Source of the DNA: Gemmatimonas phototrophica
GTDB taxonomy: Bacteria; Gemmatimonadota; Gemmatimonadetes; Gemmatimonadales; Gemmatimonadaceae
Direction: 5' to 3'
NCBI RefSeq assembly: GCF_000695095.2
Contig: NZ_CP011454.1
Coordinates: forward strand, 2,666,001-2,730,000
DNA length: 64,000 nt
Both the position numbers and the translations under genes were made by a program. Positions 2,043 to 47,711 of this stretch are shown here, in pieces; the stretch's first letter is position 1, and every line of letters begins with the position of its first letter. The notes beneath the pieces were generated by a model. It saw only the letters and a program-made list of their open reading frames with translations. It made no database searches and was not told the origin of the DNA.

Positions 2043-3079
2043 CCACGACGGCTTCGCACACGCCGACCACCAAACGCGTCGGCGTGATTGGCTCCTTTGT
2101 GTGGGATGTGCTGCACGGCCGTGATGGACGCAGCGTCCCGATTGAAGAGTGGGGCGGCATTACCTATTCGCTCTCGGCGCTCGATGCGGCGCTCCCCGAC
2201 GACTGGGAGATTGTACCGTTGGCCATGGTTGGTCAGGATCTTGTGGAACGTGCGCAGTGGTATTGCCGCGGACTGCGCCGCATGGCGCCGGATGCCGCAC
2301 TCATTGGCGTACCGTATCCCAACAACCGCGTGGAGCTGCGCTACCTCGATGATGAGCGACGTACCGAGCATCTCACGGGCGGTGTGCCTGCGTGGACGTG
2401 GCTGGGACTCAAGCCGGTGCTGGACGCCGCACGTCTCGACGCGCTGTACATCAACCTGCTGAGTGGGTGGGAGCTCGACCTCGAAACGGCGCAGCTCATT
2501 CGCGCCCACTTTCAGGGTCCCATTTACTGCGATCTGCATATGCTGGTCATGGCGGTCCAGGCCGACGGGCTGCGCACACCGCGGCCCCTGCCCAACGTGG
2601 CAGAGTGGTGTGCCTGCTTCGACGTCATGCAGGTGAACGAAGATGAGATGCGCCTGATGGCGCCCGACTCCATGGCGCTGGCCGCAACGGCCATGGCGGC
2701 CGGGGTGTCGGTGTTGGGCGTCACGTTGGGCAAGCGGGGCGCCGCGTACTTTGCCGCGCCCGGGATCGAATCGTTGCACGACTTGCCTCCTCGCAGAGGT
2801 CACAACGTTGCTCTATCCACATCACCTCGTGGCGGCGCCGGCGCGCTCGGTGCGCTGCGCACCGCGCTCGTTCCTGGCGTGCCGCCGCGCGTTGACGGAC
2901 CGGGAGATCCCACCGGTTGTGGCGATGTGTGGGGCGCCACCCATTTCTCCCGGCTCCTTGCTGGTGATAAGTTGACTGATGCCATCGCGGCAGCCAATCG
3001 TGCTGCATCGCGAAACGTCGAACATCGTGGGGCCGCTGGCCTCTCGAATCATCTCCGCGGAGAGCTCAGCACCACGTGA
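2039..3079 (+). CDS. PfkB-family carbohydrate kinase-like protein
   Basis: This 346-residue protein starts at a GTG overlapping the ROK kinase stop by four bases. The N-terminus VGVIGSFVWDV and the following EEWGGITYSLSALDAAL correspond to the PfkB substrate-binding start and first glycine motif. The C-terminal signature reads DPTGCGDVWGA near residue 285, where the final Asp is the catalytic base of the family and Cys replaces the more usual Ala. The family phosphorylates ribose, fructose, adenosine and similar compounds. The central region is divergent, so the substrate cannot be assigned. Its coupling to a second sugar kinase suggests joint sugar metabolism or sensing. Confidence 0.8.
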   Translation: MTTTASHTPTTKRVGVIGSFVWDVLHGRDGRSVPIEEWGGITYSLSALDAALPDDWEIVPLAMVGQDLVERAQWYCRGLRRMAPDAALIGVPYPNNRVELRYLDDERRTEHLTGGVPAWTWLGLKPVLDAARLDALYINLLSGWELDLETAQLIRAHFQGPIYCDLHMLVMAVQADGLRTPRPLPNVAEWCACFDVMQVNEDEMRLMAPDSMALAATAMAAGVSVLGVTLGKRGAAYFAAPGIESLHDLPPRRGHNVALSTSPRGGAGALGALRTALVPGVPPRVDGPGDPTGCGDVWGATHFSRLLAGDKLTDAIAAANRAASRNVEHRGAAGLSNHLRGELSTT

Positions 3080-4020
3080 CGACTGTCATCAGCGTGCCGC
3101 CATCGCTCGACGAACACACGTTCGAGCAGGTGATTGAGCAACTGGCGGCCACGCCGGAAGGATCCAAGATCCTGCTCGATGCTCGGCATGCCCGCTGGGC
3201 CTCGCCCTACGGTCTCACCGCGCTGCTCTGTGTGCCGCAGGCGCGTACGGAGCGCATTGCCTTTGCCGTGCCCGAAAATCCGGATACGGTTTCGTACTGG
3301 TCGCGCACCGGGTTCTTTCGGCATGCCGCCGACCTGTACGAACTGCACGGCGCCGTGCCGCGTGCACGTGAGGCTCACGAAAGCGACGTGCTCCTGGAAA
3401 TCACCCCCATTACCAAGAGCGATGATGTGCACGGCGTGGTGGGGCGCATTCAGCAGAAGGCCGCCGACATTCTGCACGGGCAGCTCAATCTCGACACCGC
3501 GGTGACCGGCGCGTTCGGCATGACGCTCAGCGAAGCCTGTCAGAACATCGTGGAGCACGCGGGACTTGGCGGATGGGTGGCGGTGCAGACGTACAAGTAC
3601 ACCCGGCGATTGGGCCGCCGTGTCGTGGTCATTTCGGTGTGTGACGCCGGCGTGGGCTTTCGCAAATCACTGGAAAGCTCGCCGGGACATCGGCGCAGTG
3701 ACCGCTGGGACGATGCCATGGCGCTGGAAGATGCCGTCCTGCGTGCCGCCTCGCGCTTTCGCCATGGCGATGCAGGACGCGGCCAGGGGTTGGCCGGCAT
3801 TCGTCGATTTGTGGGGCGTTGGCACGGCAAGCTCACGGTACGCAGCGGCACGGCGCGCCTTGGCATCATTCCCGAATGGGACGAGGATGTACCCATGACG
3901 GAGGGGCTCCCGTTTTTCCCCGGCGCGCAGATGCAGATCATCATCCCTGAGCGGGTCGGGGAAGCGCCCGCACGCTCGGCAGGCGGTGGGGCCGCCTCCC
4001 GGGGCCGGAGCCGCCTGTGA
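3076..4020 (+). CDS. STAS-like plus HATPase (anti-sigma-factor type) signalling protein
   Basis: The first ~100 residues resemble a STAS fold (strand-rich, LLDARHARWASPYGLTALL). Residues ~125-300 are a GHKL/HATPase_c domain. The N-box LSEACQNIVEHA is near residue 152, the G1 box DAGVG starts at Asp190, and the G2 box GRGQGLAGI is near residue 237. There is no histidine-kinase phospho-acceptor helix, so a serine-kinase/anti-sigma (SpoIIAB/RsbW-like) role is more likely than a histidine kinase. Such proteins bind or phosphorylate STAS partners. GTGA overlaps link it to genes on both sides, and the next gene also carries a STAS-like domain. The STAS assignment is weaker than the HATPase one. Confidence 0.75.
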   Translation: MTTVISVPPSLDEHTFEQVIEQLAATPEGSKILLDARHARWASPYGLTALLCVPQARTERIAFAVPENPDTVSYWSRTGFFRHAADLYELHGAVPRAREAHESDVLLEITPITKSDDVHGVVGRIQQKAADILHGQLNLDTAVTGAFGMTLSEACQNIVEHAGLGGWVAVQTYKYTRRLGRRVVVISVCDAGVGFRKSLESSPGHRRSDRWDDAMALEDAVLRAASRFRHGDAGRGQGLAGIRRFVGRWHGKLTVRSGTARLGIIPEWDEDVPMTEGLPFFPGAQMQIIIPERVGEAPARSAGGGAASRGRSRL

Positions 4021-4604
4021 TGCACATTGATGTGGGACTCGTGCTGCGCGGCACCGTGTGCGATCTGTATTCCAATCTCGTCACCCGCCCCACCGGGGCG
4101 GCGGTACGTACGGCCATCGAACAGCAGTTCGGAGAGATTGGCGCCCCGGCCGTTACCACGATCGACTTTTCGCAGGTCAACCTGCTCGATTTTTCCTGCG
4201 CCGACGAAATCGTGGCCAAACTGCTGTTGCGGTTCACCAGCGACGACGGTCCACCGGGGTTTCTCACTTTCCGGGGCATTCACGAGGGGCACATCGACCC
4301 GATCGAAACCGTCCTTGAGCGACACGCGCTGGCGCTGGTCTCCTGGCACGAAGGCGAAGCCGAGCTCTTTGGCTGCGTCGAGGACGACGAGCGTGACCAC
4401 TGGCTGGTGGTGCGTGATCGCGGACCGGTGCAGGTCGAAACGGTCGCGCGCACGCTCAACGTGACAGAGGAGTTCGCCATGGCCCAGCTTGAGCGGCTGA
4501 CCCGGCGGCGTCTGGTAATGCGCCGAGATGAGGGGTATACCGTACCGGGAGTGGTTCAGGGCGGGCCCGGATCGCTACCGACCAACGGATCGGGGGTACA
4601 GTGA
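4017..4604 (+). CDS. STAS-like domain protein with C-terminal winged helix
   Basis: A protein of about 195 residues. Residues ~5-110 contain the STAS-like pattern IDFSQVNLLDFSCADEIVAKLL, resembling the STAS-like family found next to ATP-binding anti-sigma proteins (DUF4325 type; my recognition, not a search). Residues ~115-180 look like a small winged helix (VETVARTLNVTEEFAMAQLERLTRRRLV). A STAS module joined to a DNA- or protein-binding helix is a plausible output partner for the HATPase protein encoded just upstream. The GTG at 4017 and the ATG at 4020 are adjacent start choices; both overlap the previous stop. The stop overlaps the next gene by four bases. Confidence 0.65.
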   Translation: MMHIDVGLVLRGTVCDLYSNLVTRPTGAAVRTAIEQQFGEIGAPAVTTIDFSQVNLLDFSCADEIVAKLLLRFTSDDGPPGFLTFRGIHEGHIDPIETVLERHALALVSWHEGEAELFGCVEDDERDHWLVVRDRGPVQVETVARTLNVTEEFAMAQLERLTRRRLVMRRDEGYTVPGVVQGGPGSLPTNGSGVQ

Positions 4605-4951
4605 GCAAGGACGACGACACTCTGGGAGGTCCCGCGGGCGGCACCCGCAAGCTGGGACTGTTCAGCGGCTTTGCCCCGCCCGTACAGGTGGTGGGGTTCA
4701 TCGCCACCCGGAAGGGCGACCCGGACCGGGGGCCCCTCATCCGCATGCGTCCGGACGATGCCCTGGTCCGCCTCGTGACCGCGGGCGAACTGGTGCGTGT
4801 GGTATCGGAGCGTCGCTCGGAGTTGGCCGTGCTCGAAATGGACGAATCCCTCCCACGGGGTGGCGTGGTCCTCCGTGACGTGGTCGGGGCGTCGCCCTCT
4901 GAGCTGGTGCGCGTGCTCCGGGTGGACAATATCTCGCGCCCTCGTCCCTGA
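4601..4951 (+). CDS. small hypothetical protein in the kinase-ftsEX operon
   Basis: A 116-residue protein with no family I recognise. It starts at a GTG overlapping the previous stop by four bases and is 23 bases from the next gene, so it is very probably translated. It has no signal peptide or membrane segment. The C-terminal half (LAVLEMDESLPRGGVVLRDVVG) is strand-rich and faintly resembles the small beta-barrel end of molybdopterin-dinucleotide-binding domains, but this is too weak to assign. Its place between the STAS protein and the PLP-fold protein suggests a part in the same process. Confidence 0.7.
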   Translation: MSKDDDTLGGPAGGTRKLGLFSGFAPPVQVVGFIATRKGDPDRGPLIRMRPDDALVRLVTAGELVRVVSERRSELAVLEMDESLPRGGVVLRDVVGASPSELVRVLRVDNISRPRP

Positions 4952-4974: not shown

Positions 4975-5949
4975 GTGCCCCATCTGCTGCATCGCCGGCT
5001 GGCCGACCTTGAAGGCGCCGAGTCGGCGCTCGTTCTGGCCAGTGGTCGTGCCGCCGTCGCGTGCACGGCGCTGGCGTTGTTGCGTCCGGGGGACCACCTG
5101 CTCTCCAGCATGTGGCTGCGGCCGGAAACGCGACATTTCTTCGCGCAAGAACTGCCGGCTCTTGGTGTGGAGGTCTCCTACGTCGATCCGCGGGAAACCC
5201 GTGGCTGGCGACGGGGATTGTCGCGCACGACACGGGCTCTTTTTGTCGAATCGCCGGTGCTGGAGTCGGGACGACTGCTTGACCTGCGCCCGCCGCGTAC
5301 GCTCACCCAGGAACTGGGGCTCGCGCTCATTGTTGACGCCACCGCCGCGTCGCCTGTGAACTTCACCCCGATCGCCCATGGCGTGGACATCGTGCTGCAC
5401 GATGCCACGCTGTTCCTCGATGGACACGGGCAGGGTGAAGCCGGCGTCGTGGCCGGTACCGAGGGACTAGTGGAAGAGGTGCGCCTCAAGATGGAAACGT
5501 GGGGGGCCCTGCCCCACCCGCTGGCGCGCGTCCAGCTCGACAACGGTCTCGCCACGCTCGAAGTGCGTGTCCAGCGGCAGAACAGCACGGCGCAGCAGCT
5601 TGCCGAGTGGGCCGAGGGGTACCCCGACGTCAGCGCGGTATTGTATGCCGGTCTCGCCTCACACCCTGACCGGTCGGCGTTCGAAGAATGGTTCAAGGGC
5701 GCGGGTGCCACGGTGCATCTGCGCCTGCGCGAGCAGCTCCACGCCGACATTGCGCCGGATGTTCCTCAGATTGCCGCGCACGCCTCGGCGTTGCTCGCCG
5801 GCGCGCCCGGTGCCCGCAACGTGATCACGCACATCGCCCCGGGGGGTGACGCGGGGTGGCTCCGTGTACACGTGGGGCTCGAGTCGGTGGATACCATTAT
5901 TGCGGCCCTCGTGTCGGCGATCTCCGCGCCCTCTCCGTTCTCCAGTTAG
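4975..5949 (+). CDS. Cys/Met-metabolism PLP-fold protein lacking the Schiff-base lysine
   Basis: This 324-residue protein aligns by eye with the cystathionine gamma-synthase/O-acetylhomoserine sulfhydrylase family: LADLEGAESALVLASGRAA (cofactor phosphate loop), VDATAASP (the Asp121 that contacts the pyridine nitrogen), then HDATLFLDGHG. In active members that segment reads SATK-Y-x-GGH with the PLP-binding Lys; here the position is Leu146. The protein is also about 60 residues short at the N-terminus compared with the usual 380-400, so it lacks the arm that contributes to the neighbouring active site. It is therefore probably a non-enzymatic scaffold or sensor. The start is a GTG 23 bases after the previous gene; ftsE begins three bases after its stop. 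It is intact and not obviously decaying. Confidence 0.75.
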   Translation: MPHLLHRRLADLEGAESALVLASGRAAVACTALALLRPGDHLLSSMWLRPETRHFFAQELPALGVEVSYVDPRETRGWRRGLSRTTRALFVESPVLESGRLLDLRPPRTLTQELGLALIVDATAASPVNFTPIAHGVDIVLHDATLFLDGHGQGEAGVVAGTEGLVEEVRLKMETWGALPHPLARVQLDNGLATLEVRVQRQNSTAQQLAEWAEGYPDVSAVLYAGLASHPDRSAFEEWFKGAGATVHLRLREQLHADIAPDVPQIAAHASALLAGAPGARNVITHIAPGGDAGWLRVHVGLESVDTIIAALVSAISAPSPFSS

Positions 5950-5952
5950 CCG

Positions 5953-6666
5953 ATGTCCGGGATTCTTCGCGTAGCGAACGTGTCGAAGGAATACCCACGT
6001 TCGGGTATGGCACTGCGTGATGTGTCCTTCGAAATGCAGAAGGGCGAATTCGTCTTTTTGGTAGGACACTCCGGTGCGGGCAAGAGCACCTTGCTCAAAT
6101 TGCTCACCATGGCCGAACGCCCGACCACCGGCGAAGTACGCGTGTCCGGCTACTCGAGCTTTTCCATCAAGCCACGGGAAGTACCGCACCTTCGTCGTCG
6201 ATTGGGAATTGTCTTTCAGGACTTTCGCCTACTCCCCGATCGCACGGCCGAACAGAACGTGGCCTTTGCATTGGAAGTCACGGGCACCCCCAACGCGCAG
6301 ATCGGCCCCAAGGTGGCCCGGCTGCTGACGCAGGTGGGACTCGCCTCCCGGGCCACGGCCTATCCGCACGAACTCTCCGGTGGCGAACAGCAGCGGGTGG
6401 CCATCGCCCGCGCGCTCGCCAACGATCCGTTTCTGCTGCTCGCCGACGAACCGACGGGCAATCTGGATGATCGAGCCACGCACGCCATTTACCTGTTGCT
6501 GCGTGAGATCAACGCCCGGGGCACGTCGGTCCTCATGGCCACCCACGACGTTGCGATTTTGCAACGCGCGCAGCAGCGATGCATTGAGCTCGATCACGGA
6601 CAGCTGGTCTTTGATGGCAACGATATGACCGCGCTGGTGGCCAGCATGCGCGGGCGGCGTCCGTGA
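5953..6666 (+). CDS. ftsE: cell-division ATP-binding protein FtsE
   Basis: FtsE is the cytoplasmic ATPase of the FtsEX complex. It uses ATP to drive FtsX, which activates periplasmic murein hydrolases at the septum. Visible motifs are Walker [10 protein letters not shown] (near residue 41), the ABC signature LSGGEQQRV, Walker [13 protein letters not shown] and the switch histidine in MATHD. The length of 237 is typical (about 222-230), with a slight C-terminal extension. ftsX begins seven bases downstream and an EnvC homologue follows, which confirms FtsE over other ABC ATPases such as LolD. Confidence 0.95.
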
Positions 6667-6673
6667 GGCTCGC

Positions 6674-7531
6674 ATGAGGCTTGCTTTGCGTGAAGTGGCG
6701 CTGGCGTTTCGCCGTGCTCCGTTACTGGCCGTACTTGGTGTCGTGACGATCGGCTTTTCACTCTTTGCCTTTGGGCTGTTCGGGTTGGTGGCGCTCAACA
6801 TCCGGACGGCGTTGCGTGAGGTGGAGGATCGCGTGGAAATCCGTGCGTTTCTGGTGGAGGGGGCCAAAGATGCGCAGATCGATGAATTGATGCAGCGCAT
6901 GCAGAAGAACCCGGCAGTGGCCGAGGTGGGGTTCGTCTCACCCGATTCGGCCCTCATGCGCGCCAGGGCCGAATTGGAGGAGTTCCGCGATGTCATGGAC
7001 GGCGCGTTCCTCCCCGGGTCGGTTGAACTGCGGCTCAAGGAAGGATTGCGCGATCCAGCCACGGTGGCCGAACTATCTCGACGGCTGCAGACGTATCCGG
7101 TGGTGGAAGAAGTCCGTTATGGGCGCGAGTGGGTGGAGAAGCTGTACAAGATCAGAAACATTGCCGCGCTAGCCGGCACCGTACTGGGCGGGGTGTTTGC
7201 AATGGTCGCGGTGATCATCATCGGCAGTACCATTCGCATGGCCATTCTCGCGCGAACGCGCGAGATCGAAATCATGCGACTGGTCGGGGCCACCAACTGG
7301 TTTGTGCGTTTCCCCTATCTGCTGGACGGTCTGCTCAAAGGATTGCTCGGAGGTGTGCTGGCCGTCGCCATGTCGTGGGGCACGACCAACATTCTGGCGC
7401 GCTCGCTCATGCAAACCGAGTTCTTCAGCCAGGATCAGATTCTGCTGGGCATTCTGGCGGGTGGCCTGCTGGGCCTGCTGGGAAGCTGGTTTTCGGTGGG
7501 CCGTCATTTGCGCCAGGTCTGGCGCGACTGA
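6674..7531 (+). CDS. ftsX: cell-division permease-like protein FtsX
   Basis: A 285-residue inner-membrane partner of FtsE. A short cytoplasmic start (MRLALREVALAFRRAP) is followed by TM1 at about 18-42 and a large periplasmic domain at about 45-165 with the RVEIRAFLVEG and VVEEVRYGREWVE elements typical of FtsX. Three more TM segments follow at about 170-200, 220-245 and 255-278. The periplasmic domain binds the murein hydrolase activator, whose likely gene is 14 bases downstream. FtsX does not transport a substrate; it transmits the ATPase cycle across the membrane. Confidence 0.93.
   Translation: MRLALREVALAFRRAPLLAVLGVVTIGFSLFAFGLFGLVALNIRTALREVEDRVEIRAFLVEGAKDAQIDELMQRMQKNPAVAEVGFVSPDSALMRARAELEEFRDVMDGAFLPGSVELRLKEGLRDPATVAELSRRLQTYPVVEEVRYGREWVEKLYKIRNIAALAGTVLGGVFAMVAVIIIGSTIRMAILARTREIEIMRLVGATNWFVRFPYLLDGLLKGLLGGVLAVAMSWGTTNILARSLMQTEFFSQDQILLGILAGGLLGLLGSWFSVGRHLRQVWRD

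Positions 7532-43795: not shown

Positions 43796-47711
<3,916 letters not shown>

Follow-up and report, generated by a model that had tools for sequence, protein, structure and literature searches.

A lysine-less PLP-fold pseudoenzyme encoded directly before ftsE in Gemmatimonas

Introduction

Pseudoenzymes are usually viewed as single end states. Two described cases are closest to the gene reported here. The eudicot TSB-like pseudoenzyme is a dead PLP-enzyme paralogue that has a proven non-catalytic role (PMC12727527), and the dead paralogue of the trypanosomatid deoxyhypusine synthase is a proven allosteric activator in a heterotetramer (PMC3663545). The ftsE-linked gene of Gemmatimonas shares with TSB-like the descent from a PLP enzyme and the catalytic death; its own role is putative. 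TSB-like arose beside the living TSB by two residue changes (PMC12727527), whereas at the ftsE-linked locus the original gene itself died. The dead deoxyhypusine synthase paralogue (PMC3663545) was likewise retained in evolution, but has a different fold.

The nearest active relatives of the ftsE-linked protein are the PF01053 enzymes (cystathionine gamma-synthase, methionine gamma-lyase, O-succinylhomoserine sulfhydrylase). Homology, predicted fold and the positions of the ring aspartate and of the C-terminal Arg are alike. In contrast to these enzymes, the ftsE-linked protein is devoid of the Schiff-base lysine, the N-terminal arm and the active-site Tyr, a Ser is replaced by Asp, and the substrate loop is lost. 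In the Cys/Met family of PLP enzymes the Schiff-base lysine is indispensable for catalysis, and an N-terminal Tyr and Arg that come from the neighbouring subunit hold the PLP phosphate.

A literature search found no description of an ftsE-linked, Lys-less gene in Gemmatimonas. What sets the gene apart from the described cases is an original locus that died in place, repeatedly, within one genus, with a syntenic series that runs from Lys-bearing to deleted.

Results and discussion

The gene and its neighbourhood

The window, i.e. the whole stretch of 64,000 nucleotides that was analysed, belongs to a genome of Gemmatimonas phototrophica that consists of a single contig of 4.72 Mb and carries photosynthetic reaction-centre genes. 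The locus comprises the following genes:

3076–4020, plus strand: HATPase_c (GHKL) protein, conserved in the cluster (Pfam)
4017–4604, plus strand: putative STAS-like neighbour, conserved in the cluster (no Pfam match)
4601–4951, plus strand: 116-aa protein (P116), conserved upstream neighbour (weak Molydop_binding match, below cut-off)
4975–5949, plus strand: Lys-less, N-terminally truncated gamma-family PLP-fold pseudoenzyme, 324 aa (Pfam, alignments, AlphaFold2 model)
5953–6666, plus strand: ftsE, beginning 3 nt past the pseudoenzyme stop (TIGR02673, 280 bits)
6674–7531, plus strand: ftsX (PF18075/PF02687)

The pseudoenzyme starts with GTG at 4975. Its product matches the Pfam profile PF01053 with 195.7 bits at profile positions 56–379 of 381, so that the first ~55 positions have no counterpart; full-length relatives carry ~65 extra residues. 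As the stop of the preceding gene ends at 4951 and the GTG is the sole start codon in this frame, a longer N-terminus is impossible without overlap. The truncation stated in the first-pass annotation, which was made from the sequence of the window, is thus real. The MetY-type paralogue with Lys that it listed in the same window is also present (~44182–45552), and Lys-bearing PF01053 paralogues are found elsewhere in the genome as well.

P116 scores 22.1 bits against the molybdopterin dinucleotide-binding domain (cut-off 26.8) and is perhaps a stand-alone double-psi beta-barrel. It precedes the PLP gene throughout the family; in other families of the order, a tblastn search of the corresponding locus gave no P116 match. 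Upstream of P116, the HATPase_c gene followed by the STAS-like gene (3076–4604) recalls partner-switching regulation. This pair is kept upstream of ftsEX in the family, and the STAS-like gene is present in other families of the order too.

Catalytic and cofactor residues

The segment HDATLFLDGHG aligns to HSATKFLGGHN and HSATKYLSGHG in the solved structures of tobacco cystathionine gamma-synthase and Pseudomonas putida methionine gamma-lyase (MGL). The positions concerned are:

5116–5130, plus strand: LRPET, residues 48–52, replacing IYGGT; active-site Tyr gone (alignments)
5335–5337, plus strand: Asp121, at the position of the PLP-ring (pyridine N) aspartate, retained (alignments)
5401–5403, plus strand: Asp143, replacing the phosphate-binding Ser (S208 in MGL), which is invariant in 74/74 Lys-bearing relatives
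5410–5412, plus strand: Leu146, codon CTG, at the Schiff-base lysine position (alignments; AAG (Lys) in genome G051)

Leu146 lies opposite the Schiff-base lysine at an offset of 65 (K211 in P. putida MGL numbering); the alignment to the cystathionine gamma-synthase and methionine gamma-lyase structures therefore puts Leu, and not Lys, at the catalytic position. Asp121 lies opposite the ring-binding aspartate. On both residues the first-pass annotation was right. Its statement that the glycine-rich cofactor loop is kept holds in part, but SGM has changed to SGR, and the protein has lost several further residues for cofactor and substrate.

The window protein is thus a PF01053 member by homology and overall fold which keeps the ring-binding Asp. 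The Schiff-base lysine, the N-terminal arm with its Tyr-x-Arg motif, and the active-site Tyr and phosphate Ser (LRPET and HDATL instead of IYGGT and HSATK) are absent. As a homologue of active enzymes that has lost indispensable catalytic residues, it is a pseudoenzyme. With the Lys, the N-terminal Tyr/Arg, the active-site Tyr and the phosphate Ser all gone, we infer that it neither binds PLP covalently nor carries out PLP chemistry, and judging from these residues any binding of PLP is unlikely.

Loss of the lysine is confined to Gemmatimonas

Orthologues were sought in 179 genomes of the family, many of them MAGs, and in GTDB contigs, where a single protein query gave no match and an alignment-based query gave matches. 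The counts below are of distinct sequences, not of independent events. The orthologues sit at the same place, between P116 and ftsE. A residue other than Lys occupies the Schiff-base site in all 25 distinct Lys-less orthologues of the genus that were compared, in ten variants (V, A, T, L, M, H, E, F, R and G). The entropy of this site is 3.0 bits in the Lys-less members, the highest of the sites listed, and 0 in the Lys-bearing ones. Outside the genus, all 74 distinct ftsE-linked orthologues keep Lys, as do 50/50 paralogues compared. The only genus member with Lys is G051, whose copy is fragmentary. What the genus shares at this site is therefore the loss of Lys; the Leu, which the first-pass annotation had proposed to look for next to ftsE in related genomes, is not shared. 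With ten residues at the site, Leu as a selected replacement is ruled out.

The Lys-bearing orthologues of other Gemmatimonadales are the same gene by position and sequence (about 43–52% identity within the family). Unlike the window protein they are full length (~385–400 aa) and contain HSATKYLNGHHD and IYGGT. The 74 sequences of the other genera carry a motif of the form HS(A/T/G)TK(Y/F)LNGHHD, with IYGGT or a close variant ahead of it; the N-terminal arm is complete, and nearly all have the Y-x-RY motif. The 25 distinct Lys-less sequences, on the other hand, lack the arm or have it scrambled, read LRPET or variants of it instead of IYGGT, and have a SEPRYTSH substrate loop that is either shortened or scrambled. 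The copy in G071 (locus L040) has a longer low-complexity stretch, SSEPWSGEPSSGEP, in place of the substrate-loop region, and not a deletion.

The Lys-less reading frame is open in 26 genomes of the genus, two of them cut by contig ends. Two further families of the order likewise have the gene immediately ahead of ftsE, and every copy with a readable motif has Lys. Hence this gene neighbourhood is ancestral, and the Lys was lost within Gemmatimonas. The linkage to ftsE is at least as old as the ancestor of the order, and the gene is a lineage-specific pseudoenzyme that is retained in most Gemmatimonas species and deleted in a few. The first-pass annotation was right about the place of the gene in an ftsEX cluster, but the position is ancient and ordinary. 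As evidence for recruitment to cell division it is ruled out, because active orthologues occupy the same position across the order. Replacement of the dead gene by a new, genus-specific paralogue is likewise unsupported: MetZ-like (L003) and L001-type paralogues also occur outside the genus, where the live ftsE-linked gene is present too.

Several genera have an extra gene of ~1.1 kb between the Lys-bearing PLP gene and ftsE (L044, L045, L054, L055, L056 and other loci), and at these loci ftsE starts ~1130 nt past the PLP stop. A Gemmatimonas-type locus (L119) is found in CALQGY020000010.1, a record titled Candidatus Kuenenia stuttgartiensis, which is probably a mislabelled MAG. In G157 (genus g34, same family) the best match to a Lys-bearing orthologue reaches 2.3e-82, which is paralogue level only, and the ftsE-linked gene may be missing there too.

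Repeated loss, erosion and deletion

In the protein tree the dead sequences form one clade on longer branches, with the fragmentary Lys-bearing copy of G051 inside it (support 0.993). On trees of ftsE/ftsX and of five neighbour genes, G051 falls next to G071 (Lys to Thr) and G058 (Lys to Gly). The operon trees put the one Lys copy that survives in the midst of dead ones, so that several independent losses are implied if Lys was not regained. The best count would be four on the operon trees; the protein tree, with weak support (0.247) for the node in question, would require at least two. G051 is a MAG with an estimated contamination of 5%; its PLP copy shares a contig with ftsE, ftsX and envC.

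Some members have lost the gene itself. In G048, nested as the sister of G045, only 116 nt lie between P116 and ftsE. This scar still encodes two pieces of the gene, VYPGLATHP and GLKDASIRIGDLTQALE followed by a stop (read by eye). G052 sits on a long branch that is basal in the genus; there the distance is 69 nt and there is no PLP gene. In G054 the reading frame is kept with Leu at the lysine site and the C-terminus is heavily diverged. The region was not found in G046, a genus member of 59% completeness. The scar in G048 and the absence in G052 show that the gene is dispensable in the genus; both genomes retain ftsEX. One genus thus displays at one syntenic position a graded series from the Lys-bearing copy of G051 through dead but folded proteins and the eroded G054 to the scar in G048 and the absence in G052.

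Selection and predicted fold

Omega was estimated pairwise (NG86, a simple estimator) for close pairs within the genus; the pair G155/G156 was left out, being aberrant for all genes. The Lys-less gene has an omega of 0.06–0.27 with bootstrap upper limits that are all ≤0.41, and the differences fall mostly at third codon positions, e.g. 44/31/147 over the three positions between the window species and G061. In the same pairs ftsE has an omega of 0.01–0.08. Selection on the Lys-less gene is usually 2–7 times weaker than on ftsE, which argues against a binding role. Genus g10, by contrast, still has the intact enzyme, and there the PLP gene (0.064–0.065) and ftsE (0.058–0.072) evolve about equally slowly. 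The constraint on the Lys-less gene is thus relaxed but real.

An AlphaFold2 model of the window protein based on 45 sequences has an intact fold (pLDDT 90.8, pTM 0.89). Its top PDB matches in Foldseek are methionine gamma-lyases (TM 0.86, normalised to the query). Apart from the deleted copies, the gene thus encodes a predicted folded protein under purifying selection, as is expected of a pseudoenzyme.

Retained residues and a putative binding role

Positions were taken as retained when conserved in at least 88% of both the dead and the live ftsE-linked proteins while their residue occurs in less than 30% of 50 paralogues. Nineteen positions are of this kind. Apart from small hydrophobic exchanges, the set contains P72, R76, W78, R79, E168, K172, W176 and D232, eight charged, aromatic or proline residues common to dead and live members and not to the active paralogues. 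Most of them lie in two segments:

5188–5211, plus strand: P72..R76-x-W78-R79, in dead and active ftsE-linked members, not in paralogues (conservation comparison)
5476–5502, plus strand: E168, K172 and W176 on the predicted helix 163–176, in dead and active members, not in paralogues (conservation and AlphaFold2 model)

The three residues on the helix are spaced i, i+4, i+8. The retained residues are candidates for a non-catalytic binding surface that would be older than the catalytic loss, but they could equally stabilise the fold.

The first-pass annotation had proposed that the fold was recruited for binding or scaffolding. This proposal is weakened by the fact that G048 and G052 have lost the gene altogether, and kept alive by the family-specific set of retained residues; recruitment for binding is a possible, predicted role. 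On balance we favour a protein that folds, is dispensable and no longer catalytic, and keeps a residual role in binding, which is probably the correct description. The ancestor would have been a full-length gamma-family PLP enzyme (cystathionine gamma-synthase, methionine gamma-lyase or sulfhydrylase type) encoded directly before ftsE. Its reaction would have been covered by Lys-bearing paralogues, which are still present in these Gemmatimonas genomes, or have become unneeded. The protein would then have persisted as a folded, non-essential one by virtue of a non-catalytic role, most likely the binding of a protein or ligand. The surface for this, with P72/R76/W78/R79, E168/K172/W176 and D232 as candidates, would already have existed in the live ancestor. 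Where the role lapses, the gene would be deleted and ftsE left undisturbed. By gene order the protein is possibly a component of the FtsEX system; the gene is absent from G048 and G052, where ftsEX remain.

A serious but less favoured possibility is that the gene is a dying, functionless relic which erodes and is kept open mainly by coupling of ribosomes to the ftsE start or by the cost of a misfolded product. Stepwise erosion, the ten residues at the lysine site and the longer branches fit this, as do the scar, the absence and the diverged C-terminus in G048, G052 and G054 and the fact that the gene adjoins or overlaps ftsE. However, a mere coupling frame needs to stay open and does not need a conserved protein, which is at odds with the low omega and the excess of third-position changes. 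The confidently predicted fold and the number of genomes with an open frame also speak against a relic.

More speculatively, the active ancestor may have been bifunctional, with a second, non-catalytic binding through R76/W78/R79 and E168/K172/W176 that alone was kept after repeated independent catalytic losses. We regard this as rather doubtful. Such a function was perhaps tied to the envelope/division cluster.

The dead protein might instead be a regulatory subunit that assembles with an active paralogue encoded in the same genome, which we consider unlikely. The Cys/Met PLP fold family is oligomeric and active paralogues coexist, both of which would suit such an assembly. The dead paralogues of deoxyhypusine synthase (PMC3663545) and of tryptophan synthase beta (PMC12727527) are precedents. 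Nevertheless, the paralogues are only about 27–32% identical and are unlinked to the ftsE locus. A heteromer is a special case of the binding role, and it has less support because the N-terminal arm needed to complete the active site of the partner is missing.

It is very improbable that the protein is still a PLP-binding enzyme of altered chemistry, like the PLP-fold sugar dehydratases with His for Lys. The Asp121 and Arg297 positions are retained across the dead sequences, and Thr145 in the window protein. No fixed residue has replaced Lys, however, and the phosphate Ser has become Asp, with the N-terminal Tyr/Arg, the Tyr114 equivalent and the substrate loop lost.

A sequencing or assembly error at the lysine codon can be dismissed; nothing in its favour was found. 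Independent assemblies including the single-contig G000, G043 and G044 are non-Lys, the codons (CTG, TTT, GCG) are each more than one base away from a Lys codon, the loss is accompanied by correlated losses and it recurs in all 25 distinct Lys-less orthologues of the genus.

The graded series, with the several losses that it implies, makes the genus a natural experiment on what selection preserves in an enzyme after catalysis has been dropped, and it names residues for probing a non-catalytic role. Annotation pipelines may label these genes as cystathionine or methionine enzymes, which would be wrong for Gemmatimonas.
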